This document shows, in pieces, positions 42,889 through 55,580 of a stretch of DNA of 59,403 bases (position 1 is its first letter; each line of letters begins with the position of its first letter). This DNA is from Prochlorococcus sp. AG-402-O21. GTDB lineage: Bacteria > Cyanobacteriota > Cyanobacteriia > PCC-6307 > Cyanobiaceae. The notes beneath the pieces were generated by a model that saw only the letters and a program-made list of their open reading frames with translations, did no database searches and was not told where the DNA came from. The position numbers and the translations under genes were made by a program. The stretch lies in contig QCIZ01000009.1 in the NCBI GenBank assembly GCA_003216375.1, forward strand, positions 1 through 59,403, in the 5' to 3' direction.

Positions 42889-43944
42889 CTAACTCTCAGT
42901 TGTTGCGAGAGAAGCTACTGATCCAACAACACGACGGAAATCAAAGCCCATAGCTCTAAGAGCATGCCAGATATGACCTTGAATAAAGAAAAATCCAAAG
43001 TAATAGTGAACATTTGACAATGCGGCTCTAGTTGTATGGCCTAAAAACGCTGTGCTATCAGAGACATCTCCTGTGTCTACCCAATAAGGAGAGATTCCAA
43101 ATTTCAAAGCTAAAGGCTCTCCATACCAATCAATTGGATAAACAGTTGTGTTTTGTGCACACCAGAATGCAGCAACAATTGCCATCCAGCCAATACCAGC
43201 AAGAGACCATGAAAGAACTGCTTCTGCTGAAAGCAATCCTTTTCCTTTGAATTCAGTGTATTCACCTAGTTGTTTTGTAGCTATGTGCCATGCACCACCA
43301 CTTATTTGAACGAATGCTAAGAATGCATGTCCGCTCATTACTTCTTCAAGGCTATCAATGGTTAGAAAGTCGAACTGATGTCCGTAAACCATTCCAAAAT
43401 CACCATATCCAGGGAAGATTGTTCTGATTTCACCTATAGCAGGGTCGTAAATCCCATGCCATCTTGCCCACTCAACGAACCAAATATTTGCAACACCAAA
43501 GAAAATCAAATGATGTCCAAGAATGAATGTCAAATTATCTGGGTTGTCCCATTCTAATTTGAATTTCTTAGTGGTAGGGATAGGACCATCTTTCAAGTCC
43601 GGATCAAATAAGAGTGAATGAGCTAATCCAGCTGTTCCATACACAGCTGAAAAAATTAAATGGAAAATAGCAATTGTTGCCACACCAGCTCCTGTCCATA
43701 CACCAGCTTCATCAAAGCCAATACCAAGAGAAGCTAAATGAGCAAGGAATATGGAACTTTGATGTCCCATTGGTATTTCTGGGTTGTAGCGAGCAAGCTC
43801 CCAAAGAGTGCTTCCACCTGCTGCAAAGCAAATAAGACCTGTATGGCCTATATGTGACCCTATGAATCGACCTGCGCGATTGGTCACCACAGAATTACCA
43901 ACCCACCACCCATAGGTGACGTCTGGATTTCCGTAGGTCTGCAT
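42889..43944 (-). CDS. pcb: Pcb chlorophyll a/b-binding antenna protein (copy 1)
   Basis: 351 aa from the ATG at 43944, chosen because all five paralogues begin MQ(T/S)YGNPDVTYGWW; an in-frame start 39 bp earlier is less likely. A six-helix antenna of the CP43/IsiA superfamily with His residues in GHTGLICF, ILGHHLIFFG, GHAFLAFVQ and the C-terminal VHYYFGFFFIQGHIWHALRAMGFDFRR. It binds divinyl chlorophylls around the photosystems. The loop before the GHQFDF block (EIRTIFPGYGDFGMVYG) differs from the other four copies. Confidence 0.93.
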   Translation of the reverse strand: MQTYGNPDVTYGWWVGNSVVTNRAGRFIGSHIGHTGLICFAAGGSTLWELARYNPEIPMGHQSSIFLAHLASLGIGFDEAGVWTGAGVATIAIFHLIFSAVYGTAGLAHSLLFDPDLKDGPIPTTKKFKLEWDNPDNLTFILGHHLIFFGVANIWFVEWARWHGIYDPAIGEIRTIFPGYGDFGMVYGHQFDFLTIDSLEEVMSGHAFLAFVQISGGAWHIATKQLGEYTEFKGKGLLSAEAVLSWSLAGIGWMAIVAAFWCAQNTTVYPIDWYGEPLALKFGISPYWVDTGDVSDSTAFLGHTTRAALSNVHYYFGFFFIQGHIWHALRAMGFDFRRVVGSVASLATTES

Positions 43945-44005
43945 AATTAAGGAATTAAAGTCGAAATTTTGGATACCATACACTTATTGGAATTGTTTTT
44001 ACCAG

Positions 44006-44023
44006 AATAGTTAGAGGTCTTTA
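44006..44023 (-). promoter_or_regulatory. Shared pcb upstream element (copy 1)
   Basis: On the minus strand TAAAGACCTCTAACTATT, ending 62 nt before the pcb start codon. Nearly the same sequence precedes copy 2, and relatives precede copies 3-5. TAACTATT could be the -10 box with GACCT just upstream. Confidence 0.5.
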
Positions 44024-44074
44024 TAGGTATCTGTCTTTTTTTACCAAAAAAACACTTTTTTTCAGAAAAAACCA

Positions 44075-44109
44075 AAAAAAATACCCCCCCAAAGGGGAGG
44101 TATTTTTTT
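44075..44109 (-). terminator. Terminator of pcb copy 2
   Basis: Arms 44075-44090 and 44094-44109 pair except for one mismatch; C/G-rich core next to the 3-nt loop, with A7/T7 ends. On the minus strand it lies 14 nt after the copy 2 stop codon. Confidence 0.82.
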
Positions 44110-44123
44110 ATTCTAATTTGAAT

Positions 44124-45236
44124 TTATCTTGGTGCTCTTCCGTTGAAACCTGCTCCTTCAACTCTAACAGTTGCTCCTTGGCTGTTACCAATAGCATCAG
44201 CAACTTTCTTGAAATCAAATCCTAAAGCTCGAAGAGCATGCCAGAAATGACCTTGCAAAAAGAAGAAACCAAAGTAGTAGTGAACATTCACTAAAGCTGC
44301 TCTAGTTGAGTGACCAAAGAATGCTGTGGAATCAGAAAGGTCTCCAGTATCAATCCAGTAGGGGGCCACAGTGAATTGTAATTTTAATGGTTCACCAAAC
44401 CACTCTATTGGATATACGGTTGTATTAGTTGCAGCCCAGAAAGCAGCCACAATTGCCATCCAACCAATACCTGCAAGAGACCATGAAAGAACTGCTTCGG
44501 CTGAAAGTAATTCAGCTCCTTTGAATTTACTCCATTCTCCAAGTCTCTTGTTTTCCCATTGAGTTGAACCAGCAACCATATGAATAGTTGCTCCAGTCAA
44601 TTCAGCAAAAGCTAGGAAAGCATGTCCACCCATAACATCTTCAAGACTATCAATTTCAATGAAATCGAACTGTCGATTCCAAATCATTGTCAAGTCAAGG
44701 TTGTAATTAACCTGACGAACTGCACCTATCGCAGGATCGTATATGCCATGTATCCTCGCCCATTCAACAAACCATATACATGCGACACCAAAGAAAAACA
44801 AATGGTGACCAAGAATAAAAGTTTGATTATCGGGGTTTTCCCATTCAAGTTTGAATTTTCTAGCGCGAGGCACTTCGCTCTCTTCAACATCAGCCTCGAA
44901 ATAGACTGCATGCAAGAGAGCTCCTCCTCCATAAACCATTGACAAGACCAAATGAACAATAGCTATTGCAGCTACTCCTACACCTGTCCATGCACCTGCC
45001 TCATTGAAACCAATTCCAATTGAAGCCAAATGAGCCAAGAATAGTGAGCTCTGATGCCCCATTGGGATCTCAGGGTTGTAGCGGGCAAGCTCCCAAAGTG
45101 TGCTTCCACCAGCCGCAAACGCGATCAAGCCTGTATGCCCTATATGGGAGGCTATAAATCGGCCTGAGCGGTTGGTGACCACAGAATTACCAGCCCACCA
45201 ATCATAGGTAACATCTGGATTTCCATAGCTCTGCAT
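44124..45236 (-). CDS. pcb: Pcb chlorophyll a/b-binding antenna protein (copy 2)
   Basis: 370 aa from ATG at 45236, the longest of the five. Same six-helix plan and His ligands (GHTGLIAF, ILGHHLFFFG, GHAFLAFAE, QGHFWHALRALGFDFKK). Distinctive: YDWWAG instead of YGWWxG at the start, a lumenal-loop variant ATIHMVAGSTQWENKRLGEW with a short insertion, and an extended C-terminus GNSQGATVRVEGAGFNGRAPR. Likely targets a different photosystem or site than copies 3 and 5. Confidence 0.94.
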   Translation of the reverse strand: MQSYGNPDVTYDWWAGNSVVTNRSGRFIASHIGHTGLIAFAAGGSTLWELARYNPEIPMGHQSSLFLAHLASIGIGFNEAGAWTGVGVAAIAIVHLVLSMVYGGGALLHAVYFEADVEESEVPRARKFKLEWENPDNQTFILGHHLFFFGVACIWFVEWARIHGIYDPAIGAVRQVNYNLDLTMIWNRQFDFIEIDSLEDVMGGHAFLAFAELTGATIHMVAGSTQWENKRLGEWSKFKGAELLSAEAVLSWSLAGIGWMAIVAAFWAATNTTVYPIEWFGEPLKLQFTVAPYWIDTGDLSDSTAFFGHSTRAALVNVHYYFGFFFLQGHFWHALRALGFDFKKVADAIGNSQGATVRVEGAGFNGRAPR

Positions 45237-45301
45237 AATTTTTTAAGCGATACAGGCGAAATATGCGTGCAGATTACACGCTGCTGAAATGATATGTGCA
45301 A

Positions 45302-45319
45302 AATAGTTAGAGGTCGTTA
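45302..45319 (-). promoter_or_regulatory. Shared pcb upstream element (copy 2)
   Basis: Minus strand TAACGACCTCTAACTATT, 66 nt before the copy 2 start. It differs from the copy 1 element by one base over 18, despite otherwise dissimilar upstream sequence. Confidence 0.5.
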
Positions 45320-45572
45320 TTTAGTTTGACTATTTTTTCCCATTTCAATAATTAAAACGATTTTATAGAAGCTGAGATATTGTCTCAAGGAGATAGTAAA
45401 AATCTTCGAAAGTCGAGTTATAGCTTAATTTAAAAACTCGAAATTCTCGACTAATCATTCAAAAAAGCTCAATCAACGAGATCTAACGATATTTGATAAA
45501 AAAATTTCAACGTTGTAAAACGAATAATTTTTTTTTAATCGATCGAAATTAAAAGAAAAAAATTGCAAAAAA

Positions 45573-45596
45573 AAAGAGGAGATTAAACTCCTCTTT
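45573..45596 (-). terminator. Terminator of pcb copy 3
   Basis: Arms AAAGAGGAG (45573-45581) and CTCCTCTTT (45588-45596), six-nt loop. On the minus strand the 3' arm continues into a long T run, 25 nt after the copy 3 stop. Confidence 0.85.
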
Positions 45597-45621
45597 AAAA
45601 ATTATTTTGTTTTTGATTAAA

Positions 45622-46668
45622 TCAATAAAGCTGAGCTGGAAGAGGCTCTTTAAGAACTTTCTTGAAGTCAAATCCCATAGCCCTTAAAGCATGCCATAGA
45701 TGACCTTGAAGGAAGAAAAATCCAAAGTAATAATGAACATTTGCTAGAGCAGCCCTAGTTGTATGACCAAAGAAAGCAGGACCTCCTGAAAGATCAACGC
45801 TATCAATCCAATAAGGAGCAACACCAAACTTCAAGATCAAAGCTTCTCCGTACCAAGCTTCAGGATAAACTGTTGTGTTCTGAGCACACCAAAAAGCAGC
45901 TACTACAGCCATCCAACCAATACCTGCACAAGAGAATGAAAGAATTGATTCTGCTGAAAGAAGACCAGCTCCTTTGAATTTGGTGTATTCACCAACTTGC
46001 TTGGTAGCAATATGGAAAGCTCCACCTGTGATCTCAACAAATGCTAAGAATGCATGACCACCCATAACATCCTCAAGACTATCGATAGCCAAGAAATCAA
46101 ACTGATGATTCCAAATATTGGTCAAGTTAAGGTTGTACTCAACTTGTCGAACAGCTCCTATTGCAGGATCATAAATTCCATGAATTCGTGCCCATTCAAC
46201 AAACCATATACATGCAACACCAAAGAAAAGCAAATGGTGTCCAAGAATAAATGTCTGATTATCGGGGTTGTCCCACTCAAGTTTGAACTTTCTAGCTTGT
46301 GGAACCTCTGAATCTTGCATATCGCCAACAAATAGCACTGAATGCAATAAACCACCGGCTCCATAAACCATGGAAAGAACCAAATGAACGATGGCAATAG
46401 AAGCGACTCCTACTCCTGTCCAAGCACCAGCCTCATCAAAGCCGATACCAATTGAAGCTAAATGAGCAAGAAAGATAGAACTCTGATGACCCATGGGGAT
46501 CTCAGGGTTATATCTTGCTAATTCCCAAAGAGTACTTCCACCTGCTGCAAAGGCTATTAGCCCAGTATGCGCAATGTGAGCAGCAATGAATTTACCAGAT
46601 TTGTTAGTAACCCCAGCGTTTCCAGCCCACCAACCATAGGTGACATCCGGGTTTCCGTAGGTCTGCAT
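45622..46668 (-). CDS. pcb: Pcb chlorophyll a/b-binding antenna protein (copy 3)
   Basis: 348 aa from ATG at 46668. Six-helix antenna with GHQSSIFLAHLASIGIGF, ILGHHLLFFG and QGHLWHALRAMGFDFKK; short C-terminus KEPLPAQLY. Its central region is almost identical in DNA to copy 4 (46021-46160 against 47864-48003), while flanking regions are clearly different, pointing to recombination between copies. Binds divinyl chlorophylls in the thylakoid. Confidence 0.94.
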   Translation of the reverse strand: MQTYGNPDVTYGWWAGNAGVTNKSGKFIAAHIAHTGLIAFAAGGSTLWELARYNPEIPMGHQSSIFLAHLASIGIGFDEAGAWTGVGVASIAIVHLVLSMVYGAGGLLHSVLFVGDMQDSEVPQARKFKLEWDNPDNQTFILGHHLLFFGVACIWFVEWARIHGIYDPAIGAVRQVEYNLNLTNIWNHQFDFLAIDSLEDVMGGHAFLAFVEITGGAFHIATKQVGEYTKFKGAGLLSAESILSFSCAGIGWMAVVAAFWCAQNTTVYPEAWYGEALILKFGVAPYWIDSVDLSGGPAFFGHTTRAALANVHYYFGFFFLQGHLWHALRAMGFDFKKVLKEPLPAQLY

Positions 46669-46730
46669 GATTTAAGATTTTTGGCGTAATACGGTGAGCA
46701 CACCTTACAGGCAGCTCAATTCAAAAACTA

Positions 46731-46752
46731 CTATTAGTAATAAGGTCTTATA
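46731..46752 (-). promoter_or_regulatory. Shared pcb upstream element (copy 3, diverged)
   Basis: Minus strand TATAAGACCTTATTACTAAT about 63 nt before the start; keeps the GACCT core and an ACTAAT-like -10 block. Confidence 0.4.
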
Positions 46753-46846
46753 CAGAAGTAGTAAAGTTTTTTTTCTTTAAATTGGCTTAACCCGCGACTA
46801 AACTAGGTTTTCATTGAAATACTAAAGAAAAATTTAAATATCAAAA

Positions 46847-47041
46847 ATGAAATCTGCTTTACAACTTGAGCTACAAGACCTCCATGGACTTCCTTATATA
46901 GCAACAATAATTTGGTTTGTTCTGCTTGGAGTTTGTCTTTTAGCAGTTGTTTTTTATCTGTTTCAAAAAAATTACAGGCCAAAGGCAAAAATTGATGATC
47001 GTATTTCTCCTGAGAAGAAATCACGACCAAAAGGGTTTTAA
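46847..47041 (+). CDS. Single-TM mini-protein within the pcb cluster (A)
   Basis: 64 aa from ATG, opposite in strand to the flanking pcb genes. Amphipathic N-terminus (ALQLELQDLHGLPYI), one membrane helix (about 18-39, ATIIWFVLLGVCLLAVVFYLF) and a basic tail KNYRPKAKIDDRISPEKKSRPKGF. Not recognised as a named photosystem subunit. Size, helix and position make an antenna or photosystem accessory role plausible, but that is inference. A second mini-gene follows 115 bp on. Confidence 0.65.
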   Translation: MKSALQLELQDLHGLPYIATIIWFVLLGVCLLAVVFYLFQKNYRPKAKIDDRISPEKKSRPKGF

Positions 47042-47156
47042 ATGACTAAGAAAATTTTGTTTTTCAATGTTAGTTCTCGAATTAATGTAATATCCTCAAA
47101 CACGGGTTTGGCATAGTGGCCACCTGGGTTAACAATAAAAACAATTTTTTTACTCA

Positions 47157-47363
47157 ATGATTGATTTTTCTCACCTTCTTGATTTTGCCACTCAGCTTCC
47201 ACACCCATCAGATATTGGTTTAATCAAACCATCCGGTGGATTTAATATAGCTGCAGCTCTTTGTGGACTTGGAGCAGTATTTGGAGCTTCTCAATTCTTC
47301 TATTATTCTGATGATTCAAAAAGAATCGATCCTTGGGCCAAGCCTGAAAACTACAAAAACTAA
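47157..47363 (+). CDS. Single-TM mini-protein within the pcb cluster (B)
   Basis: 68 aa from ATG. N-terminal HLLDFATQLPHPSDIGLIKPSGG, a moderately hydrophobic glycine/alanine helix (about 28-48, GFNIAAALCGLGAVFGASQFF), then YYSDDSKRIDPWAKPENYKN. No named family recognised. The Gly/Ala-rich helix suits tight packing in a membrane complex. Its transcript would end at the terminator shared with pcb copy 4. Confidence 0.65.
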   Translation: MIDFSHLLDFATQLPHPSDIGLIKPSGGFNIAAALCGLGAVFGASQFFYYSDDSKRIDPWAKPENYKN

Positions 47364-47392
47364 AGAAAATTAAAAACTAATTTTTTATCACA

Positions 47393-47428
47393 AAAAAAGA
47401 GCCTCATCATATGACGAGGCTCTTTTTT
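47393..47428. terminator. Bidirectional terminator, mini-protein B and pcb copy 4
   Basis: Core arms GAGCCTC (47399-47405) and GAGGCTC (47416-47422) with A6 and T6 extensions and a 10-nt loop. Serves the plus gene ending at 47363 and the minus pcb gene ending at 47453. Confidence 0.85.
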
Positions 47429-47452
47429 ATTGGGATTTTTAAAAACCAATAA

Positions 47453-48541
47453 TTAATCAGAAAGGGTAACCCTAGCGTTATCAAGATTACTAATTGAATC
47501 AGTAACCTTCTTGAAATCAAAGCCTAAAGCACGTATTGCATGCCAAAGGTGACCTTGAATGAAGAAAAAGCCTAGGTAATAATGAACATTTGTAAGCCAA
47601 GCTCTTGAAGTATGGCCACTAACAACTCCAGTCATATCAGCGGTATCAATCCAATAAGGAGATATACCAAATTTAAGAGCTAGTGTTTCTCCATACCAAG
47701 CTTCTGGATAAACAGTTGTATTTGTTGCACACCAGAAAGCTGCAATAATTGCCATCCAACCAATACCGGCAAGAGACCATGAAAGAACTGCTTCAGCAGA
47801 AAGAATGTTCTTTCCTTTGAATTCGGTGTACTCGCCTACTTGCTTGGTAGCGATATGAAATGCTCCACCTGTAATCTCAACAAATGCTAAGAATGCATGA
47901 CCACCCATAACATCCTCAAGACTATCGATAGCCAAGAAATCAAACTGATGGTTCCAAATATTGGTCAAGTTAAGGTTGTACTCAACTTGTCGAACAGCTC
48001 CTAAGGCAGGATCGTAAATTCCATGAATTCGGGCCCACTCAACAAACCATATACATGCCACTCCAAAGAAAATCAAATGGTGACCAAGGATAAAAGTCTG
48101 ATTATCTGGATTGTCCCATTCAAGCTTGTATCTTGCTGCCTGACGATGCTCAGGACGATCATCAGCAAACAAACCTGAACTATTTTGGGTGTCTTCGCTA
48201 AAGATCAAAGAATGCAATAAACCTGCACCCGCATATACCATTGAGCAAATCAGATGGAATACACCGATAAAGGCTATTGATGTGCCATCAAATACTGTTC
48301 CAGTTGGATCAAATCCAATACCAATAGAAGCAAGATGTGGAATACTCACCATACCCTGGTGTCCCATTGGAATATCTGGGTTGTATCTAGCGAGCTCCCA
48401 AAGTGTGTTTGCACCAGCTGCGAAACAAATCAATCCTGTATGAGCAACATGCGAGCCAATAAATCGGCTTGACTTATTTGTTACGACAGAATTACCAACC
48501 CACCACCCGTAAGTGACGTCTGGATTTCCGTAGGACTGCAT
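47453..48541 (-). CDS. pcb: Pcb chlorophyll a/b-binding antenna protein (copy 4, IsiA-like features)
   Basis: 362 aa from ATG at 48541. Same fold and C-terminus (IQGHLWHAIRALGFDFKK). Two regions set it apart: after the first helix it reads MGHQGMVSIPHLASIGIGFDPTGTVFDGTS rather than MGHQSSIFLAHLAS, closer to IsiA-type proteins, and residues about 118-137 carry an insertion SEDTQNSSGLFADDRPEHRQ. These fit the group of Prochlorococcus Pcbs associated with photosystem I or iron stress (inference). Central DNA nearly identical to copy 3. Confidence 0.94.
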   Translation of the reverse strand: MQSYGNPDVTYGWWVGNSVVTNKSSRFIGSHVAHTGLICFAAGANTLWELARYNPDIPMGHQGMVSIPHLASIGIGFDPTGTVFDGTSIAFIGVFHLICSMVYAGAGLLHSLIFSEDTQNSSGLFADDRPEHRQAARYKLEWDNPDNQTFILGHHLIFFGVACIWFVEWARIHGIYDPALGAVRQVEYNLNLTNIWNHQFDFLAIDSLEDVMGGHAFLAFVEITGGAFHIATKQVGEYTEFKGKNILSAEAVLSWSLAGIGWMAIIAAFWCATNTTVYPEAWYGETLALKFGISPYWIDTADMTGVVSGHTSRAWLTNVHYYLGFFFIQGHLWHAIRALGFDFKKVTDSISNLDNARVTLSD

Positions 48542-48605
48542 AATTGAGGAAATTGAAGTCGAAATTCGACCTACCTTACATTTACTGCCATTAATTTGCT
48601 TGAAA

Positions 48606-48624
48606 TCGTAAAAGGTCTTTATTT
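48606..48624 (-). promoter_or_regulatory. Shared pcb upstream element (copy 4)
   Basis: Minus strand AAATAAAGACCTTTTACGA, about 65 nt before the start; GACCT core preserved. Confidence 0.45.
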
Positions 48625-48742
48625 AATACACAAATGAAATCAATAATAGAGCTGGTATTATCCGTTGATTTTCCTTACAAAACCAGTGTTAGATAGGATT
48701 TAAGAATCCTTGATACATCTCATCAATTTTATTAAATAAATA

Positions 48743-48772
48743 AAAAGCCCCGCAAAGTATTACGGGGCTTTT
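48743..48772 (-). terminator. Terminator of pcb copy 5
   Basis: Arms AAAAGCCCCG (48743-48752) and CGGGGCTTTT (48763-48772) with a 10-nt loop, 26 nt after the copy 5 stop on the minus strand. Confidence 0.87.
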
Positions 48773-48798
48773 ATTGAATATCCAAGCAATGAAATCAG

Positions 48799-49863
48799 TT
48801 AGTCATTAAGAGTGATTTGTGCCCTATCTAAACCAGCAACAGCATTTGCAACTCTCCTAAAGTCAAAGCCTAATGCACGAATAGCGTGCCATAAATGCCC
48901 TTGTAAGAAGAAGAATCCAAAATAATAATGCACATTTGTTAAAGCAGCTCTTGTGGTGTGACCTGCTAATGCAGTGCTCTCACTTACCTCTACAGTATCT
49001 ATCCAATAGGGAGAAATTCCAAATTTCAAAGCCAAAGGCTCTCCAAACCAAGGTTCAGGATAAACAGTTGTATTTGTTGCGCACCAGAATGCTGCGACAA
49101 TCGCCATCCAACCAATACCTGCCAATGAGAAAGATAAAACGGCCTCGGCAGAAAGGATCCCAGCTCCTTTAAATTGTGTGTATTCTCCTACCTGCTTAGT
49201 TGCGATATGGAATGCACCACCAGTTATCTCAACAAATGCTAAAAACGCATGGCCACCCAAAACGTCTTCAAGATTATCAATAGCTAAGAAATCAAACTGA
49301 TGATTCCAAATATTGGTCAAATTAAGGTTGTACTCAACTTGTCGAACAGCTCCTATTGCGGGGTCATAAATCCCGTGAATTCTGGCCCATTCAACAAAAG
49401 CAATACAAGCTACCCCGAAGAAAATAAGATGATGACCCAAAATAAATGTCAAATTATCAGGGTTGTCCCATTCAAGCTTGAATTTTTGAGTAGTAGGTCC
49501 TGGCCCATCAGCCAAATCCCCATCAAAGAGCAAAGAGTGAGAAAGAGCTCCTCCTGCATAAACAAGAGAAGCAATAATATGGACAATTGCTACTGAAGCA
49601 ACATTGGCTCCAGTCCAAACACCTGCATCATCAAATCCAATTCCAATAGATGCAAGATGAGCGAGGAAAATAGAGCTTTGGTGCCCCATGGCTATAGAGG
49701 GATCAAACCTAGCTAGCTCCCAAAGGGTGCTAGCTCCTGCAGCAAATGAAATTAGGCCCGTATGACCTGCATGGGCTGCAATAAACTTTCCAGCGCGGTT
49801 AGTAACCCTTGAATTGCCAGCCCACCACCCGTAGGTGACATCTGGATTTCCATAGGTCTGCAT
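48799..49863 (-). CDS. pcb: Pcb chlorophyll a/b-binding antenna protein (copy 5)
   Basis: 354 aa from ATG at 49863. First of the five in transcription order. ELARFDPSIAMGHQSSIFLAHLAS, ILGHHLIFFGVACIAFVEW and QGHLWHAIRALGFDFRRVANAV. It shares the AVRQVEYNLNLTNIWNHQFDFLAID loop with copies 3 and 4. The C-terminal AGLDRAQITLND is close to the end of copy 4 (SNLDNARVTLSD). Confidence 0.94.
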   Translation of the reverse strand: MQTYGNPDVTYGWWAGNSRVTNRAGKFIAAHAGHTGLISFAAGASTLWELARFDPSIAMGHQSSIFLAHLASIGIGFDDAGVWTGANVASVAIVHIIASLVYAGGALSHSLLFDGDLADGPGPTTQKFKLEWDNPDNLTFILGHHLIFFGVACIAFVEWARIHGIYDPAIGAVRQVEYNLNLTNIWNHQFDFLAIDNLEDVLGGHAFLAFVEITGGAFHIATKQVGEYTQFKGAGILSAEAVLSFSLAGIGWMAIVAAFWCATNTTVYPEPWFGEPLALKFGISPYWIDTVEVSESTALAGHTTRAALTNVHYYFGFFFLQGHLWHAIRALGFDFRRVANAVAGLDRAQITLND

Positions 49864-49920: not shown

Positions 49921-50389
49921 TCAAAAACCTAAATAAACAACCATTGATTAATAATTTAACATCATTTTATACTAGTACATAAGTAAAACTTAACAGTAAA
50001 ATTAGTGCCTAATTATACAGAAAGCAAACAAGATAAGTTGCTTGCCTCCAAGCACAAAAACAGATAAGTTCTACTTAACTATTGATACGGTTTTTGTTGC
50101 TGGAAGAGCGCAAGCACTCTTCCAATGTTGACAGAGAAACGAACTTCGACTTCAATTCCTATCAACAATTAATGTCATAACAAAAATCAATCATGAGTGT
50201 GAGTACAAATAATTCATTTCATAAGTTCAAAACAAATTGATTAGCAATTGAGTTTTATAAATCCAAGAAAATTCTTATGGTTATACGTACCAATACAATT
50301 AAAAATCTCTTATAAAGTTTAACTAGTTTCTATCAATACAAATTATACTTAAAAAGCTAACTTCGGCTGAAGTTGATCGCATTGTTGAA
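49921..50389. other. Long AT-rich spacer with a strong hairpin
   Basis: No ORF that I can support up to the reading frame discussed under the next gene. A perfect 8-bp hairpin, TGGAAGAG (50101-50108) and CTCTTCCA (50117-50124) with an 8-nt loop, stands out from the AT-rich background but has no T tract. It may belong to a small RNA or to the leader of the downstream genes. Confidence 0.4.
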
Positions 50390-50587
50390 ATGGCATGGGA
50401 GGATAGGACTCCTTTTGATGCGATCGATTTTCAATTCAATCTCAAAGAGAGAGAAGTTATTCATCTAATGAGATCGAATTTAAAAACATCTTCTTTTAAA
50501 GTGTGGAGAAAAAGAGTTACTGGAAGGAAATCAAAGCATGGCTTCCCTGACAAGAAGACAAGGTTCAAGTCAGCTAATCAAAAGTGA
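50390..50587 (+). CDS. TIGR03643/DUF2805 family protein
   Basis: 65 aa from the first in-frame [53 protein letters not shown] is typical of this family of helix-turn-helix-like small proteins. Family members normally have about 15 more residues; the same frame upstream (from about 50342) reads LKKLTSAEVDRIVE, which fits that extension, but no ATG, GTG or TTG exists there. Translation may start at a rare codon such as ATT (50342). The stop overlaps the DUF2256 GTG by 3 bases. In many bacteria this family neighbours photolyase-like genes. Confidence 0.8.
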
Positions 50588-50715
50588 AGTTCAAATTGAT
50601 AAAAAATTGCCCGATTTGCTTGAAAGATTTTCAATGGAGAAAAAAATGGGCCAAAGACTGGGATAATGTCATTTACTGTTCAGAAAGATGTAGAAGAAGA
50701 AAAAATCAAAATTAA
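50584..50715 (+). CDS. DUF2256 zinc-ribbon-like mini-protein
   Basis: 43 aa from [36 protein letters not shown] matches the DUF2256 pattern: two Cys pairs (CPxC and CxxxC) spaced like a treble-clef or zinc ribbon around a WRKKW core. DUF2256 is often found next to, or fused with, cryptochrome/photolyase-like proteins. Coupled to the preceding gene by a GTGA overlap. Confidence 0.88.
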
Positions 50716-50807
50716 CCACGTTTTTTCGCACTTTAAAAAGAATCCAGTTATTTTAGGAAATCAACTTCTTAATCTTTGAGAAGCAACGAATTTATTAATC
50801 GACTAAA

Positions 50808-52298
50808 TTGAGAAAGATTTTCCTGATTTTTCCAAATCAATTATTCAAAATAAAAAATCAATTTTCTGACGTTAATCATATTGCTCTGATTCAAGATAAC
50901 TTATTTTTTGGTTGTGATTCTCAATGGCAAAACAAGTTTCATTGTCAAAAAATAATTTTCCACAAAGCCACTATGGACTCTTATGAAGAAGATCTCAAAT
51001 CTAAGGGTTTCAATGTAATTTATTTACAACATAAAAGAGAAAATAGAACAGAAGATAATCTCAATTATCTCTCAGGAAAAGGTTTTAATTATTTTATCAC
51101 TTATGAAATATTTGATTGGTCGCTAGAAAAAAGAATAAAGGATTTCTCTTTGAAAAATAATATAAAGTTGGAAATAAGAAAAAGTGATATGTTTATAACT
51201 TGTCCAGATATATCTGAAGAAATACTTAATCAAAAAAAAATTTATGGAATGCAGCAATTTTATAAGATTCAAAGACAAAGCCTAAATATACTTATCGAAA
51301 AAGATGGTTCGCCTAAAGGGGGGAAATGGAGTTTTGACAAAATGAATAGAAAGAAGCTCCCAAATTCAATTGAAGTTCCTAGGATACCAACTATAAAAAC
51401 AAACAGATTCCTAGATAAAGCTAAGAAAGAAGTTTCTATAAATTATAAAGATTATTATGGGAGTACAGAAAACTTTAATTATCCATTGTCTCATAAAGAG
51501 GCTGAAGAATGGTTAGATAATTTTTTAATTGAAAGATTTAATTTATTTGGAGATTATGAAGATGCAATACATTCAAATCATAGGACACTTTGGCATAGTG
51601 TTCTTTCTCCATTAATTAATTCCGGATTACTTACTCCGAGACAAATAATAGATAAATCATGGGAGTTTTATCAATCAAACAATATTGGGATTAATTCCTA
51701 TGAAGGATTTATTAGACAAATTATTGGCTGGCGTGAATTTATCCTATTAATTTATAGACGAAAGAGTTTAGAACTCAGAAATGGAAACTTCTGGGATTTT
51801 GAGGACAAACCAATACCCTTATGTTTTTACACTGGTCAAACAGGAATAAGGCCCTTGGACCACTCAATAAAAAATATTTTAGAGACAGGATATGCTCATC
51901 ATATAGAAAGACTAATGATAGTTGGAAATTTAATGCTTCTATGCAGATTCCATCCAAATCAAGTATACAAATGGTTTATGGAATTATTTATAGATTCATA
52001 TGATTGGGTTATGGTTCCAAATGTTTATGGAATGAGTCAATTTTCAGATGGAGGACTATTTACAACCAAACCATATATTTCAGGCTCTAATTATATTCGA
52101 AAAATGTCTAACTATAAATCTGAAGATTGGTGCTCAACTTGGGATAGTCTTTTTTGGACATTTATAGATGATTATAAAAATAAGTTCAAGGACCAATATC
52201 GTCTGTCTATGATTTTAAGGAGTTTAGAAAAAATGGAGCCTAATAAAAAAATGAACCACAGACGTAATGCTAATGCGTTCATGTCTAAACTAAATTAA
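50808..52298 (+). CDS. Deoxyribodipyrimidine photolyase-related protein (COG3046 type)
   Basis: 496 aa from TTG. The N-terminal alpha/beta antenna domain (about 1-130) is followed by the FAD-binding helical domain: GGKWSFDKMNRKKLP, SNHRTLWHSVLSPLINSGLLTP, GFIRQIIGWREFI, GYAHHIERLMIVGN, DWVMVPNVYGMSQFSDGGLF and KPYISGSNYIRKMSNY. This is the bacterial (6-4) photolyase/FeS-BCP architecture. Of the four Cys expected to hold the 4Fe-4S cluster only one (C442) remains; the TGxTxMxC position reads TGQTGIRP and the CxxC after MSNY is replaced by KSED with a deletion. Probably light-driven DNA repair or light sensing without the cluster. Confidence 0.85.
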   Translation: MRKIFLIFPNQLFKIKNQFSDVNHIALIQDNLFFGCDSQWQNKFHCQKIIFHKATMDSYEEDLKSKGFNVIYLQHKRENRTEDNLNYLSGKGFNYFITYEIFDWSLEKRIKDFSLKNNIKLEIRKSDMFITCPDISEEILNQKKIYGMQQFYKIQRQSLNILIEKDGSPKGGKWSFDKMNRKKLPNSIEVPRIPTIKTNRFLDKAKKEVSINYKDYYGSTENFNYPLSHKEAEEWLDNFLIERFNLFGDYEDAIHSNHRTLWHSVLSPLINSGLLTPRQIIDKSWEFYQSNNIGINSYEGFIRQIIGWREFILLIYRRKSLELRNGNFWDFEDKPIPLCFYTGQTGIRPLDHSIKNILETGYAHHIERLMIVGNLMLLCRFHPNQVYKWFMELFIDSYDWVMVPNVYGMSQFSDGGLFTTKPYISGSNYIRKMSNYKSEDWCSTWDSLFWTFIDDYKNKFKDQYRLSMILRSLEKMEPNKKMNHRRNANAFMSKLN

Positions 52299-52423
52299 TA
52301 ATTTCAACTCAGATATTTAAAACGACTAAATTTCTATTAGCTTTGTCTAGGTGTTGTTTTTACTCCAAAAGAGTACTCTAGAAAAGAAGTTAATTTTGTA
52401 TAGTGTTAATTTGATTAGGCAGA

Positions 52424-52873
52424 GTGAAGCTGAAAATTGGTGATCAAATTCCATTATTTTCTTTGAAAGATCAAAACGGGAACATCAGAACTTCAAATAA
52501 ACTGAAAAAGTCTCTAGTTTTGTTCTTTTACCCGAAAGACGATACACCTGGTTGTACTATTGAGGCCTGTGGCTTTCGAGACAAATATGATCTTTTCAAA
52601 ATTCTAGGTGCTGAGGTGTGGGGAATAAGCAATGGTAGTATTAAAAGTCATCTAGGATTTGCAAATAAAAACAAACTTCAGTATCCATTACTTTGCGATC
52701 AAAATAATATTCTCAGAAATCAATTTGGAGTACCGAAAAAGCTAGGATTCATTGAAGGAAGAGTAACCTATATAATAAATTCCGAAGGAATAATAAAACA
52801 TATATTTGAAGACCTTCTAAATGGTCCAGCGCATATAAAAGAAGCTATAAAAGCATTAAAAAAACTTCAATAA
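52424..52873 (+). CDS. Peroxiredoxin Q/BCP
   Basis: 149 aa from GTG. The peroxidatic Cys lies in FYPKDDTPGCTIEACGFRD, with a second Cys five residues later, as in the atypical 2-Cys PrxQ group. The C-terminal RVTYIINSEGIIKHIFEDLLN is normal. A thioredoxin-dependent peroxidase that removes peroxides. Placed between two photolyase-type genes, 4 bp before the second. Confidence 0.93.
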   Translation: MKLKIGDQIPLFSLKDQNGNIRTSNKLKKSLVLFFYPKDDTPGCTIEACGFRDKYDLFKILGAEVWGISNGSIKSHLGFANKNKLQYPLLCDQNNILRNQFGVPKKLGFIEGRVTYIINSEGIIKHIFEDLLNGPAHIKEAIKALKKLQ

Positions 52874-52877
52874 TAAA

Positions 52878-54005
52878 TTGAATACTCATATGAATATTTT
52901 TGAAAAGGCAAATGATTTATTAGATAATTTCATTTTCAATCACCTTCATTCTTACCATCAGCTAAGAAATTACGATTATGGGATCGAAAACAGGACTAAT
53001 GTTTCACAGATTTCTAAATATACATCTCACAGAATACTTTACGAATACGACATAATTGAAAAATTAAAAAAGTATGATAAGAGAAAAAAGTACACTGATG
53101 AAATTCTTTGGAGGATCTATTGGAAGGGTTACCTAGAAAATTACAAATCAATATGGTTTGAATATATACATTTCAAAGAAAAATCAAATAACTCAAACTC
53201 AATTAGTTCTGCAATAAATGGTAAGACAGGTATAGATTGCTTTGATACATGGATAGAGGAGCTTAGAGAAAATAACTATTTGCATAATCACTCAAGGATG
53301 TGGTTTGCAAGTATATGGATTTTCACTTTGGGACACCCATGGCAACTAGGAGCGAGGCTATTTATGAAACATCTACTAGATGGGGATGCTTCATCAAACA
53401 CCCTTAGCTGGAGATGGGTGGCCGGAATGCATACGAACAAGAAGCCTTACTTAGCATCTAAAGAAAACATCGACAAGTACTCAAATAATCGATTCAGAGA
53501 TACTCCAATTAGCATGTCAAGCGAAATTAATATCATCAAAAATAGTCAACATCAATCAAATAAACTTCCAGTTCAAAGAAGTTTCCCTAATAGTAATTTT
53601 CTACTAATGTTTGATAATGATTTGAATATAATGAACAGATCTAAGTTATTTAATTCATACTCGAAAGTATATATATTGTATAATGACTTCATCAATAATG
53701 AATTTGTGCTAAGTGAAAAAGCAAGTCAATTCAAACGAGGCTTAATTGACAAAATAAGTAAGTTAATCCCAAACTCAGAAGTATTAAAATCAAAAGACAT
53801 AGGAACATATTTGCGTGGTCAAATTCTTGTTGATGTTATCTACCCAGGAGTTGGTCACAACCTAGATTTGATAAATAAATATGCATATCAAAATCAAATC
53901 AATCTTAATTATATTTATAGAGATGATGATCTTATGTATTGGAATTATGCAAAGTCAGGATTTTATAAATTTAAAAACTCATATTATAAACTTAATAATA
54001 TCTAA
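52878..54005 (+). CDS. Photolyase FAD-domain protein with unusual domain order
   Basis: 375 aa from TTG (ATG at codon 5 is an alternative). Residues about 20-205 are a photolyase FAD-binding domain: SKYTSHRILYEYDIIEKL, DEILWRIYWKGYLE, WIEELRENNYLHNHSRMWFA, LGHPWQLGARLFMKHLLDGD and LSWRWVAGMHTNKKPYLA. The antenna domain that normally comes first is missing. Instead residues about 235-370 look alpha/beta (NFLLMFDNDLNIM, YSKVYILYND, RGQILVDVIYPGVGHNLDLI), so the order may be inverted. DNA repair or blue-light signalling is inferred. Probably translated with PrxQ. Confidence 0.8.
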   Translation: MNTHMNIFEKANDLLDNFIFNHLHSYHQLRNYDYGIENRTNVSQISKYTSHRILYEYDIIEKLKKYDKRKKYTDEILWRIYWKGYLENYKSIWFEYIHFKEKSNNSNSISSAINGKTGIDCFDTWIEELRENNYLHNHSRMWFASIWIFTLGHPWQLGARLFMKHLLDGDASSNTLSWRWVAGMHTNKKPYLASKENIDKYSNNRFRDTPISMSSEINIIKNSQHQSNKLPVQRSFPNSNFLLMFDNDLNIMNRSKLFNSYSKVYILYNDFINNEFVLSEKASQFKRGLIDKISKLIPNSEVLKSKDIGTYLRGQILVDVIYPGVGHNLDLINKYAYQNQINLNYIYRDDDLMYWNYAKSGFYKFKNSYYKLNNI

Positions 54006-54077
54006 ATCTAATAAAATACAGATACCACAAATAAAACAAAATGCAATTATAGTAAGTACAAATTTGTAAACAAAAAC

Positions 54078-54980
54078 ATGGTTAGATTTAATGAAATTAA
54101 AAATCAAAATGGAAGAGTATTCTTAATCACTGGTGCAAATAGCGGGCTTGGTTATGAAACCTCGAAATTCCTTCTAGAAAGGGGTGCCACAGTGATAATG
54201 TGTTGCAGAGATTTACTCAAAGGAGAGAAAGCCAAGCAAGAACTTTTAAAATTTAATTTCTCTGGGAAGATTGAACTAGTTAAATTAGATTTATCCGATT
54301 TAAACAACGTAAAGAGATTTTCTGAATCTATTAAAAATAAATTTAATTCCTTAGATATTTTAATAAATAATGCTGGAATAATGGCCCCGCCAAAGACTTT
54401 GAGTAAGCAAGGTTTCGAAATACAGTTTGCGGTTAATCATCTTGCTCACATGAGCTTAACGTTGGAATTATTACCCTTGCTTGAAGAAAAAAATAATTCC
54501 AGGGTAGTTACCGTAACCTCGGGCGTTCAATATTTTGGAAAGATTCAATGGGAAGATCTTCAAGGAAATCTTAAATACGATCGTTGGGCTTCATATGCGC
54601 AGAGCAAACTTGCAAACGTAATGTTTGGGTTGGAGCTCAATTTAAAACTTAAAGAAAGAAATTCACAAACATCTTCACTACTCGCTCACCCAGGATTTGC
54701 ACGTACAAATTTACAGCCAAAGTCGGTTGAGGCTAATCAATCATGGCAAGAGGGACTTGCTTATAAATTGATGGATCCAATGTTTCAAAGCGCAAAAATG
54801 GGAGCACTGCCTCAAATATCAGCAGCTACATTATCTAGCGCTCAAGGGGGAGAACAATATGGGCCTAGATTTAACTTCAGAGGGTTCCCAAAAATATGTA
54901 GAAATGCTCCAAAAGCATTAAATCAATCTTCAAGAAAGAAATTATGGGAGATAAGCGAAAAGCTTATAAAAGATGCTTGA
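54078..54980 (+). CDS. Short-chain dehydrogenase/reductase
   Basis: 300 aa from ATG. NADP-binding ITGANSGLGYETSKFLLERGA, NNAGIMAPP, the catalytic Ser in VVTVTSGVQYFG and the YAQSKLAN active site are intact. Closest in feel to retinol dehydrogenase or protochlorophyllide-reductase-like SDRs that act on hydrophobic substrates; substrate unknown. Last gene of the plus-strand run that begins with the TIGR03643 gene. Confidence 0.9.
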   Translation: MVRFNEIKNQNGRVFLITGANSGLGYETSKFLLERGATVIMCCRDLLKGEKAKQELLKFNFSGKIELVKLDLSDLNNVKRFSESIKNKFNSLDILINNAGIMAPPKTLSKQGFEIQFAVNHLAHMSLTLELLPLLEEKNNSRVVTVTSGVQYFGKIQWEDLQGNLKYDRWASYAQSKLANVMFGLELNLKLKERNSQTSSLLAHPGFARTNLQPKSVEANQSWQEGLAYKLMDPMFQSAKMGALPQISAATLSSAQGGEQYGPRFNFRGFPKICRNAPKALNQSSRKKLWEISEKLIKDA

Positions 54981-54986
54981 TCTCCT

Positions 54987-55580
54987 CTAAAATAAAGAAA
55001 GTAATTCCTCTCCTTTATCACATATTTCCTGCTGAGAAGGGCACTCTATTATCCCAGTCCAATCAATTAAGCCTTTTCTAATTATACAATTACATTTATC
55101 CTTACCAGTTAATTCATTAAGTTCTTCTCCGGTCCAAGGAGATGGGTTATCGCTAAGCATTATTTCTTTCAATCGATCAGAAAACGACTTATTTAATTCA
55201 TCATAAACTTGAAGTGATTGAAGAAAATCCTCAAATGCCTCCGATTTATTATCAGAATTTCTTTTTTGTAATTCTTTATAAAAAACACCTCTCATAAATT
55301 TTGTACAATTGATGGCTTCAGAATTAGTAAATGGTTTCAACTTTGGACTTAAGTATTCCCGATTTCTCACTATTGATTCTAAGGATAATAACCTTTTTTC
55401 TAGATCTTGAATCTTATCAACTGAAGATAAATGAGTATTTTGAATATCATCATCAGACAAGGAATTGGTAACTAAATCAGTAATATGTTCTGTTAGACTT
55501 TTTCCCGACATCATTGCCTGCCGCTTAACTCTAATTAATAAGTCTTTTGAGATCTTTATATTAAACTGACTTTTAGTCAT
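54987..55580 (-). CDS. Ribbon-helix-helix N-terminal protein
   Basis: 197 aa from ATG. Residues 4-42 (FNIKISKDLLIRVKRQAMMSGKSLTEHITDLVTNSL) have the beta-strand/helix/helix pattern of CopG/Arc-type DNA-binding proteins. A coiled helix follows (about 55-75). The C-terminal half is not recognised but ends in a Cys-containing block (CNCIIRKGLIDWTGIIECPSQQEICDKG) that could bind metal or sense redox. Convergent with the SDR, 6 bp apart. Candidate regulator of this locus or of itself. Confidence 0.6.
   Translation of the reverse strand: MTKSQFNIKISKDLLIRVKRQAMMSGKSLTEHITDLVTNSLSDDDIQNTHLSSVDKIQDLEKRLLSLESIVRNREYLSPKLKPFTNSEAINCTKFMRGVFYKELQKRNSDNKSEAFEDFLQSLQVYDELNKSFSDRLKEIMLSDNPSPWTGEELNELTGKDKCNCIIRKGLIDWTGIIECPSQQEICDKGEELLSLF

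Follow-up and report, generated by a model that had tools for sequence, protein, structure and literature searches.

Photolyases are generally regarded as self-sufficient enzymes, and the two types that concern us here already have names in the literature, Phr2/PromaPL and Phr7. Phr2/PromaPL, which has no iron-sulfur cluster, is reported to be present in LLI and most HL strains of Prochlorococcus (PMC9426592). NewPHL is a CPD photolyase for single-stranded DNA, in which the FAD domain comes first (Emmerich 2020, as cited in PMC9426592). In Pseudomonas, light-induced gene sets of the LitR/CarH type group photolyase, cryptochrome, folE, SDR, and oxidoreductase genes; DUF2805 and DUF2256 are not named in the part of that paper available to us (PMC9758184). 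An accessory protein that boosts photolyase capacity, a role like the one proposed below for DUF2805 and DUF2256, has been described in heliorhodopsin, which differs from them in being a seven-helix membrane rhodopsin (PMC9769723). DUF2256 has been placed in the clan of TRASH-type zinc fingers (PMC4047054) and is listed among the frequent domains in proteins of 50 residues or fewer (PMC11796252). No report of a link between either small family and photolyases was found in the open-access literature.

The window, a 59,403-nucleotide stretch of Prochlorococcus sp. AG-402-O21 (contig QCIZ01000009.1), carries on its plus strand the six genes of the original prediction, i.e., those for a DUF2805/TIGR03643 protein, a DUF2256 protein, a PhrB-type photolyase, peroxiredoxin Q (PrxQ), a photolyase with its FAD domain first, and a short-chain dehydrogenase/reductase (SDR). 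The family matches of DUF2805/TIGR03643, DUF2256, DPRP, AhpC-TSA, FAD_binding_7 (70.3 bits), and SDR each exceed their own curated cut-off. The gene context supports the reading of the locus as a light-damage or photo-oxidative repair cluster, as had been suggested, and the genes may form an operon. The five Pcb antenna genes that had been placed beside it are indeed found there on the minus strand (42895–49863), the nearest one (48799–49863) being a divergent neighbor, and among the loci read, this adjacency was seen only in the clade of the window. The intergenic region contains a non-coding block conserved in that clade (50101–50195), with a hairpin (50101–50124) followed by TGTTGACAGAGAAACGAACTTCGACTTCAATTCC (50126–50159); viral contigs contained no exact match to it. 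A candidate Rfam SSRC10 element in this region was rejected, as it scored 21.3 against a required 56 bits and mostly overlapped coding sequence. Scans for promoters (18 vs. 30.3 expected from shuffled sequences) and terminators (1 vs. 2.2) gave no excess, and PADLOC gave no match.

The gene at 50808–52298 (plus strand) combines PF04244, the domain of COG3046-type photolyases (DPRP; 173.9 bits), with an FAD domain, which is the hallmark of prokaryotic (6-4) photolyases, although its FAD_binding_7 score of 24.5 bits is under the cut-off of 27. Residues 43–494 align to solved (6-4) photolyases (9hnk, E 2.3e-81). The four cysteines of the FeS-BCP class are not conserved: compared with 9hnk, the CxxC loop is missing, the first cysteine is replaced by proline, and a single iron-sulfur cysteine is aligned. 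In its PF04244 N-terminal domain and missing CxxC loop, the protein shows no essential difference from Phr2/PromaPL as far as that is described in the part of PMC9426592 available to us, and it is called Phr2 below. In a phylogenetic tree, Phr2 groups with loop-less PhrB copies of Bacteroidota (99/95 support), some of which are encoded immediately ahead of DUF2805 (L128, L141). The PhrB tree is compatible with the genes of the cassette having been transferred together from Bacteroidota, but the branches are long and the letter make-up is unlike, and such a transfer is not claimed.

Downstream lies a gene for a peroxiredoxin Q-like protein (52424–52873, plus strand), which matches AhpC-TSA (PF00578, 109.3 bits) and contains the CX4C motif of peroxiredoxin Q in TPGCTIEAC; its score is below the NCBIfam equivalog cut-offs. 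The second photolyase gene (52878–54005, plus strand) starts 4 nt downstream of prxQ. Its FAD_binding_7 domain (70.3 bits, at residues 75–192 of 375) precedes a region (241–373) that was modeled, with low confidence (mean pLDDT 55.6), as strands alternating with helices, which is the domain order of Phr7/NewPHL. As in NewPHL as described in the source available to us, the FAD domain is N-terminal, the alpha/beta part is C-terminal, and iron-sulfur cysteines are absent, there being one cysteine in the whole protein (PMC9426592). The model is too weak for a fold assignment: Foldseek gave no match at E 0.001, and the C-terminal nucleotidyltransferase-like matches, at E 0.15 or worse, are only suggestive. 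Full-length Phr7 relatives were found in 8 of the 121 genomes of the window's family. The run ends with the SDR gene (54078–54980, plus strand; NF004846, 297.7 bits) and is followed by an opposing gene (54987–55580, minus strand), the product of which may have a ribbon-helix-helix N-terminus; no family scored above its cut-off, and the best candidate of this type, DUF6364, which we take to be ribbon-helix-helix-like, reached 17.8 vs. 27.3 bits.

The two small genes open the run. DUF2256 (50584–50715, plus strand) encodes a zinc-finger-like protein of 43 amino acids (60.8 bits vs. a cut-off of 25), in which Cys 9, 12, 32, and 36 are invariant in 33 of 33 aligned sequences, these having been selected by their cysteine motif. 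A comparison with PDB sequences yielded nothing convincing (best E 0.04). Its predicted coupling to DUF2805 by a GTGA overlap was confirmed at 50584–50587; the overlap recurs in most related loci, takes the form ATGA in two, and is absent in one (L087). DUF2805 (50342–50587, plus strand) scores 109.6 bits against its own profile (cut-off 22.5) and 112.3 bits against TIGR03643 (cut-off 66.55). The start originally given for it, at 50342, is an ATT codon. The longest reading frame with a usual start codon begins at 50390, and ATG, GTG, TTG, and CTG are all absent between the upstream stop codon and the conserved DRIVE motif. From this reading of the codons, translation in the clade of the window probably starts at a conserved weak AUC/AUU codon. 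Start codons of this type in bacteria are known chiefly from infC and pcnB, and no report of one in DUF2805 was found in the open-access literature.

How far does this arrangement extend? Five related loci were read along the whole cluster, and each of them keeps the gene order, which is more than expected by chance. The genes are intact in four of these loci (L061, L062, L065, and L089). In the fifth (L088), Phr2 carries a frame-shift and the first two thirds of Phr7 are missing, whereas the two small genes beside these broken photolyases are undamaged. However, the full six-gene order was seen in close relatives only, and the block is not supported as a conserved unit. In genus g18, which, also judging from its locus names, we take to be the high-light type, DUF2805, DUF2256, and Phr2 are adjacent in four genomes, whereas Phr7, which in the window has Phr2 and PrxQ as neighbors, forms a separate divergent pair with the SDR gene in both genomes for which the Phr7 region was fetched. 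In 11 Synechococcus-type loci, neither Phr2 nor DUF2256 lies close to DUF2805.

The link between the small proteins and photolyases is wider than the six-gene block, although it is not obligate. In a sample of 148 genomes of Bacteroidota, of which the central one (G321) was picked for carrying the set and the others were drawn evenly, an FAD_binding_7 match (E 0.001) was found in all 42 genomes with DUF2805 vs. 50 of the 106 others (Fisher p 3e-11, counting genomes as independent); in three of the 42 (G405, G409, and G477), only weak matches were found (best E 1e-7 to 5e-6). A photolyase-family match lies within 5 kb of DUF2805 in at least 16 of the 42, where a generous estimate of chance is 2% per genome, and 26 have none within that distance among the matches listed. 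A scan anchored on DUF2805 covered 42 Bacteroidota-type loci; 26 of them have a photolyase-family reading frame at a distance of 10 kb or less, and 16 have a DUF2256 motif. The arrangements vary: DUF2256, DUF2805, a Phr7-like gene, and PhrB are contiguous on the same strand in L294, and the order is DUF2805, Phr7-like, DUF2256 in L291. In Pseudomonadota, DUF2805, DUF2256, and a photolyase gene occur together on a plasmid of Acinetobacter schindleri, with nudC nearby, and a Tritonibacter plasmid carries a photolyase-DUF2256 pair. Among ten plasmid neighborhoods read, three hold a photolyase-like gene close to one of the two small genes, and seven have no annotated photolyase within 6 kb, the gene table being incomplete. 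Conserved linkage in other genomes, the absence of which was to refute the original prediction, does exist, but not in every case.

Co-occurrence within the Cyanobacteria is less uniform. In the window's family (121 genomes), 54 genomes have both DUF2256 and PhrB, one has only DUF2256, eight have only PhrB, and 58 have neither, and PhrB is present in all 19 genomes with DUF2805. These counts are confounded, because streamlined lineages of Prochlorococcus have lost genes in common. In 14 control genomes, DUF2256 was found in two, both of them among the three with PF04244. Among the 82 genomes of the photosynthetic class present in the matches listed, no association of DUF2805 with PhrB was found (PhrB in 21 of 33 with DUF2805 vs. 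26 of 49 without, p 0.37, again counting genomes as independent). PhrB is thus missing from 12 of 33 cyanobacterial genomes with DUF2805, and it is missing from 31 of 79 with DUF2256. Since DUF2256 is nearly universal in the class (78 of 82 genomes), its co-occurrence there carries little information.

The gene neighborhoods and the joint presence in genomes of Bacteroidota and of the window's family support the earlier suggestion that the small proteins are partners of photolyases. As they are found beside the same repair enzymes in unrelated bacteria too, DUF2805 and DUF2256 probably help or regulate light-driven DNA repair and have been overlooked in this role. If they were regulators, DUF2805 would be a transcription factor with DUF2256 as its zinc-finger partner, setting the expression of photolyase and photo-oxidative genes in response to light or oxidative damage. 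The predicted structure of DUF2805 has four helices (pLDDT 84), and many of its 36 structural neighbors are helix-turn-helix DNA-binding domains (Z 2.8–4.2), including those of LsrR, SorC, DeoR, ArdK, KorA, and sigma region 4; DUF2805 is a small basic protein, possibly with a helix-turn-helix fold. DUF2805 is also the first gene of the run in the window, and the Polaribacter cluster L159, which additionally holds genes for a flavin reductase, GTP cyclohydrolase I, glutathione peroxidase, TspO, and an SDR, resembles the light-induced LitR set of Pseudomonas as described in the accessible part of PMC9758184. However, the structural scores are low, with two spliceosome chains at the top (Z 4.4 and 4.3) and mitoribosomal chains among the next; Foldseek gave no match at E 0.001, and the profile had none among PDB sequences up to E 1. 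The Bacteroidota copies of DUF2805 are often located within the photolyase run or downstream of it. Moreover, of the 23 columns invariant among 48 sequences from several phyla, five are in the last helix, which is nearly invariant across phyla, unlike in regulators that read an operator. This is not a selection effect, since the search patterns constrained only parts of the first half of the protein. Transcriptional regulation appears rather unlikely to us.

Alternatively, the small genes may serve another process, e.g., RNA or NAD metabolism, and have been gathered with photolyases as fellow light-responsive genes. Flavin, pterin, and lipid genes also occur in the clusters, nudC is close to the A. 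schindleri set, and one combination of DUF2805 with an NADH diphosphatase domain has been published (PMC6856373, known to us in part). Plasmid copies in Nostoc and Vibrio have no annotated photolyase beside them, and in some genomes either family is present without PhrB. Against these observations stand the direct adjacency to photolyase genes in varied orders and several phyla and the complete co-occurrence in Bacteroidota, and we judge such passive gathering improbable.

We slightly favor the reading of the locus as one for the repair of light damage, with DUF2805 and DUF2256 as small accessory factors of the photolyases. Judging from their families, Phr2 would use light to repair (6-4) photoproducts and Phr7 would repair pyrimidine dimers, probably in single-stranded DNA, whilst PrxQ would clear the peroxides that arise under the same light stress. 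The most likely target of DUF2805 and DUF2256 would be nucleic acid or the complex of photolyase and DNA, where they would aid access to the lesion or loading of the enzyme rather than read one operator sequence. Because the AUC/AUU start codon is weak, it is proposed to keep the dose of DUF2805 and of the overlapping DUF2256 low. In its full form, i.e., an unrecognized accessory pair in Cyanobacteria, Bacteroidota, and Pseudomonadota that acts directly in light-driven repair and the translation of which is throttled by an AUC/AUU codon in low-light-clade I Prochlorococcus, the proposal is tentative.

If confirmed, the start of DUF2805 in Prochlorococcus would be a rare case of conserved AUC/AUU usage, and gene finders restricted to the usual start codons would shorten the protein, as happened in the list of reading frames of the window. 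If the accessory role is true, the existence of dedicated small partners would alter the view of photolyases as enzymes that need no help, and two families without a function, DUF2805 and DUF2256, would gain one.

Six genes lie on the plus strand at 50342-54980, encoding in this order a DUF2805/TIGR03643 protein, a DUF2256 protein, a PF04244 photolyase, PrxQ, an FAD-domain-first photolyase and an SDR, so that the one-strand gene set of the original prediction is present in full. By ORF coordinates the intergenic gaps are -4, 92, 125, 4 and 72 nt, a plus-strand scan found no terminator-like sites, and an operon is plausible. Five Pcb antenna genes lie upstream on the opposite strand. Between these and DUF2805, a non-coding block with a hairpin (50101-50195) is strongly conserved in the window's clade; of the 21 pairs predicted in its consensus fold, 3 are retained despite changes on both sides, and Rfam gave no match over threshold. 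A short clade-conserved block, TATACGTACC at 50280-50291, about 50 nt ahead of the DUF2805 start, is a possible promoter or regulator site. The host genome (1.76 Mb, 97% complete) has Prochlorococcus single cells (L088 and L089) as its closest named relatives among the scan matches listed, and is presumably of low-light clade I (LLI), an assignment based in part on the report that, among low-light clades, LLI alone has kept photolyases (PMC9426592).

Both photolyases belong to an already named pair, here found in a clade-specific block. The first aligns with solved (6-4) photolyases over most of its length, but its CxxC loop is missing and so, in that alignment, is the first cluster cysteine. 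It is of the Phr2/PromaPL type, which has been described in LLI and most high-light Prochlorococcus (PMC9426592); PromaPL falls in the sole subgroup without cluster cysteines (PMC9178010, in part). The second is Phr7, with the FAD domain first, which has been connected to photolyases acting on single-stranded DNA (PMC9426592, in part). A further study lists the Prochlorococcus gene PMM1360 as encoding an FAD-domain protein minus its other half and PMM0425 as an uncharacterised photolyase relative without a clear diel pattern (PMC3441193); the two probably correspond to Phr7 and Phr2, respectively. In two papers, the Prochlorococcus operon that responds to light and UV is the nudix-photolyase operon (PMC2955971, PMC2921402), a locus separate from the Phr2/Phr7 cluster.

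The same gene order occurs in five related loci and is intact in four of them (L061, L062, L065 and L089). In the fifth, L088 (10400-12900), the reading frame of Phr2 is broken into several and the first two thirds of Phr7 are missing, reflecting either real decay or an assembly error; DUF2805, DUF2256, PrxQ and SDR give matches over their length. In four genomes of genus g18, DUF2805, DUF2256 and Phr2 remain together, and in the two for which the Phr7 region was fetched (L069 and L070) Phr7 and SDR are divergent neighbours elsewhere. Around 11 Synechococcus-type loci, 14 kb of fetched sequence held neither a Phr2 nor a DUF2256 match near DUF2805. The adjacency of PrxQ to the photolyases and the Pcb neighbourhood were thus seen only in the window's clade. 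Linkage of the small genes with photolyases recurs elsewhere.

One such group is Bacteroidota. Among 148 genomes sampled around G321, DUF2805 is found in 42. Each of these has an FAD_binding_7 match (E 0.001), all matches being weak in G405, G409 and G477, compared with 50 of the 106 others, and in at least 16 of the 42 the two lie within 5 kb. A DUF2805-anchored scan, from which 80 of 577 loci were taken, included 42 Bacteroidota-type loci. DUF2805 has a photolyase-family ORF no more than 500 nt away in 21 of these and no more than 10 kb away in 26, and 16 have the DUF2256 motif inside the latter distance. Of the genomes underlying such DUF2805 loci, 20 (19 from Bacteroidota, one cyanobacterial), of 2.9-6.8 Mb, have 2-4 FAD_binding_7 matches each, a tally that often misses PhrB copies because they match this family too weakly. 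A Polaribacter locus (L159) combines flavin reductase, a DUF2867 protein, DUF2256, a cryptochrome-like protein, PhrB, a second photolyase and DUF2805 with GTP cyclohydrolase I, SDR, glutathione peroxidase, TspO and another cryptochrome-like protein. FAD-domain-first proteins of ~365-417 aa adjoin DUF2805 in L128, L142, L160, L290, L291 and L294; they are possible Phr7 relatives, at 26-27% identity in the three aligned. The order is DUF2256-DUF2805-Phr7-like-PhrB in L294 and DUF2805-Phr7-like-DUF2256 in L291. In a tree of 57 hand-picked PhrB rows, for which the tool warned of long branches and letter composition, the loop-free proteins of Prochlorococcus and some Synechococcus group with loop-free Bacteroidota copies (99/95), separate from loop-bearing cyanobacterial PhrB. 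A loop-free PhrB immediately precedes DUF2805 in two Bacteroidota loci (L128 and L141), and a joint transfer is possible.

Among the plasmid records listed, ten from Acinetobacter carry DUF2805 and DUF2256 ~100 nt apart; on a mobilizable Acinetobacter plasmid (L304, 5986-7916) they occur with photolyase, nudC, lipocalin and desaturase genes. Of 10 plasmid neighbourhoods, 3 hold a photolyase gene or one resembling it (A. schindleri, Tritonibacter and Pseudoalteromonas, in the last 4-5 kb away), and the incomplete gene table annotates none within 6 kb in the other seven.

In the window's family (121 genomes, many incomplete, 76 with low contamination and completeness of 90% or more), DUF2805 occurs in 19, DUF2256 in 55 and PF04244 in 62, and all 19 DUF2805 genomes have PF04244. 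DUF2256 and PF04244 are both present in 54 genomes and both absent from 58, with DUF2256 alone in one (G025) and PF04244 alone in eight; much of this co-occurrence may come from shared loss in streamlined lineages. Across 174 genomes of the phylum (DUF2805 in 33, DUF2256 in 79, PF04244 in 51), all 33 DUF2805 genomes have DUF2256; PF04244 is missing from 12 of these and from 31 of the 79. Inside the photosynthetic class DUF2805 and PF04244 show no significant association (p 0.37), and nearly all genomes, 78 of 82, have DUF2256. DUF2805 adjoins PF04244 in G176 and G181. In another cyanobacterial genome, G201 (contig C496, L273), it adjoins a 48-position PF04244 match, apparently a photolyase remnant, and DUF2805 can therefore outlive PhrB.

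DUF2805 itself probably starts, in the window, at ATT (50342-50344). At this position, codon 11 before a conserved Asp, 23 loci of the clade (two pairs of which look like the same DNA) have ATC (15), ATG (4), ATT (2, including the window), GTC (1) or GAT (1). Changes in the downstream codons are largely synonymous (20 of 23 loci encode Leu at -6, using five codons, and 19 of 23 encode Ser at -4, using three), so the stretch is probably translated. In nine window genes ATC accounts for 14% of the codons for Ile; if the position held an ordinary Ile codon, ATC in 15 of 17 would be very improbable (p 1e-11, treating non-independent rows as independent). Some loci could start at another codon, since 11 of 23 offer a usual start elsewhere, from -27 to -6. 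Eight have no ATG, GTG, TTG or CTG between the upstream in-frame stop and the Asp, a stop directly precedes the ATC in L080, and the ATG at exactly -11 in the remaining four marks that position as a start. The near-cognate start, an unexpected feature, is probably conserved in the clade. An ATG precedes the conserved part in three g18 loci, as does ATG, GTG or TTG in six Synechococcus-type loci (plus-strand rows). Since DUF2256 overlaps DUF2805 by 4 nt, a weak start may throttle both.

The predicted DUF2805 structure has four helices (pLDDT 84) and weak structural matches, headed by spliceosome chains (Z 4.4 and 4.3), then HTH regulators (LsrR, 4.2) mixed with mitoribosomal chains, and lower down many more HTH rows. 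Of 23 columns invariant in 48 sequences, five lie in the last helix; the sequences were collected by first-half patterns, so that selection partly explains invariance there and not in the last helix. A regulator that recognises various operators should show variation in that helix, so the likelier case is a constant partner, which may be damaged DNA, a conserved RNA or the photolyase. Four cysteines are invariant in DUF2256, which has been placed in the TRASH zinc-finger clan (PMC4047054, in part).

In the open-access literature (most subscription journals lay outside the search) we found no report of DUF2256 together with a photolyase, no photolyase connection in the accessible text on DUF2805, no mention of TIGR03643, no paper with a family name in a combined search, and nothing relevant on non-AUG starts in the parts available. 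The broader association was thus not found in print, which is not proof of its absence there. It does extend beyond the clade-specific block, and the best reading, to which we give slightly better than even chances, is that DUF2805 and DUF2256 are accessory factors of light-driven repair.
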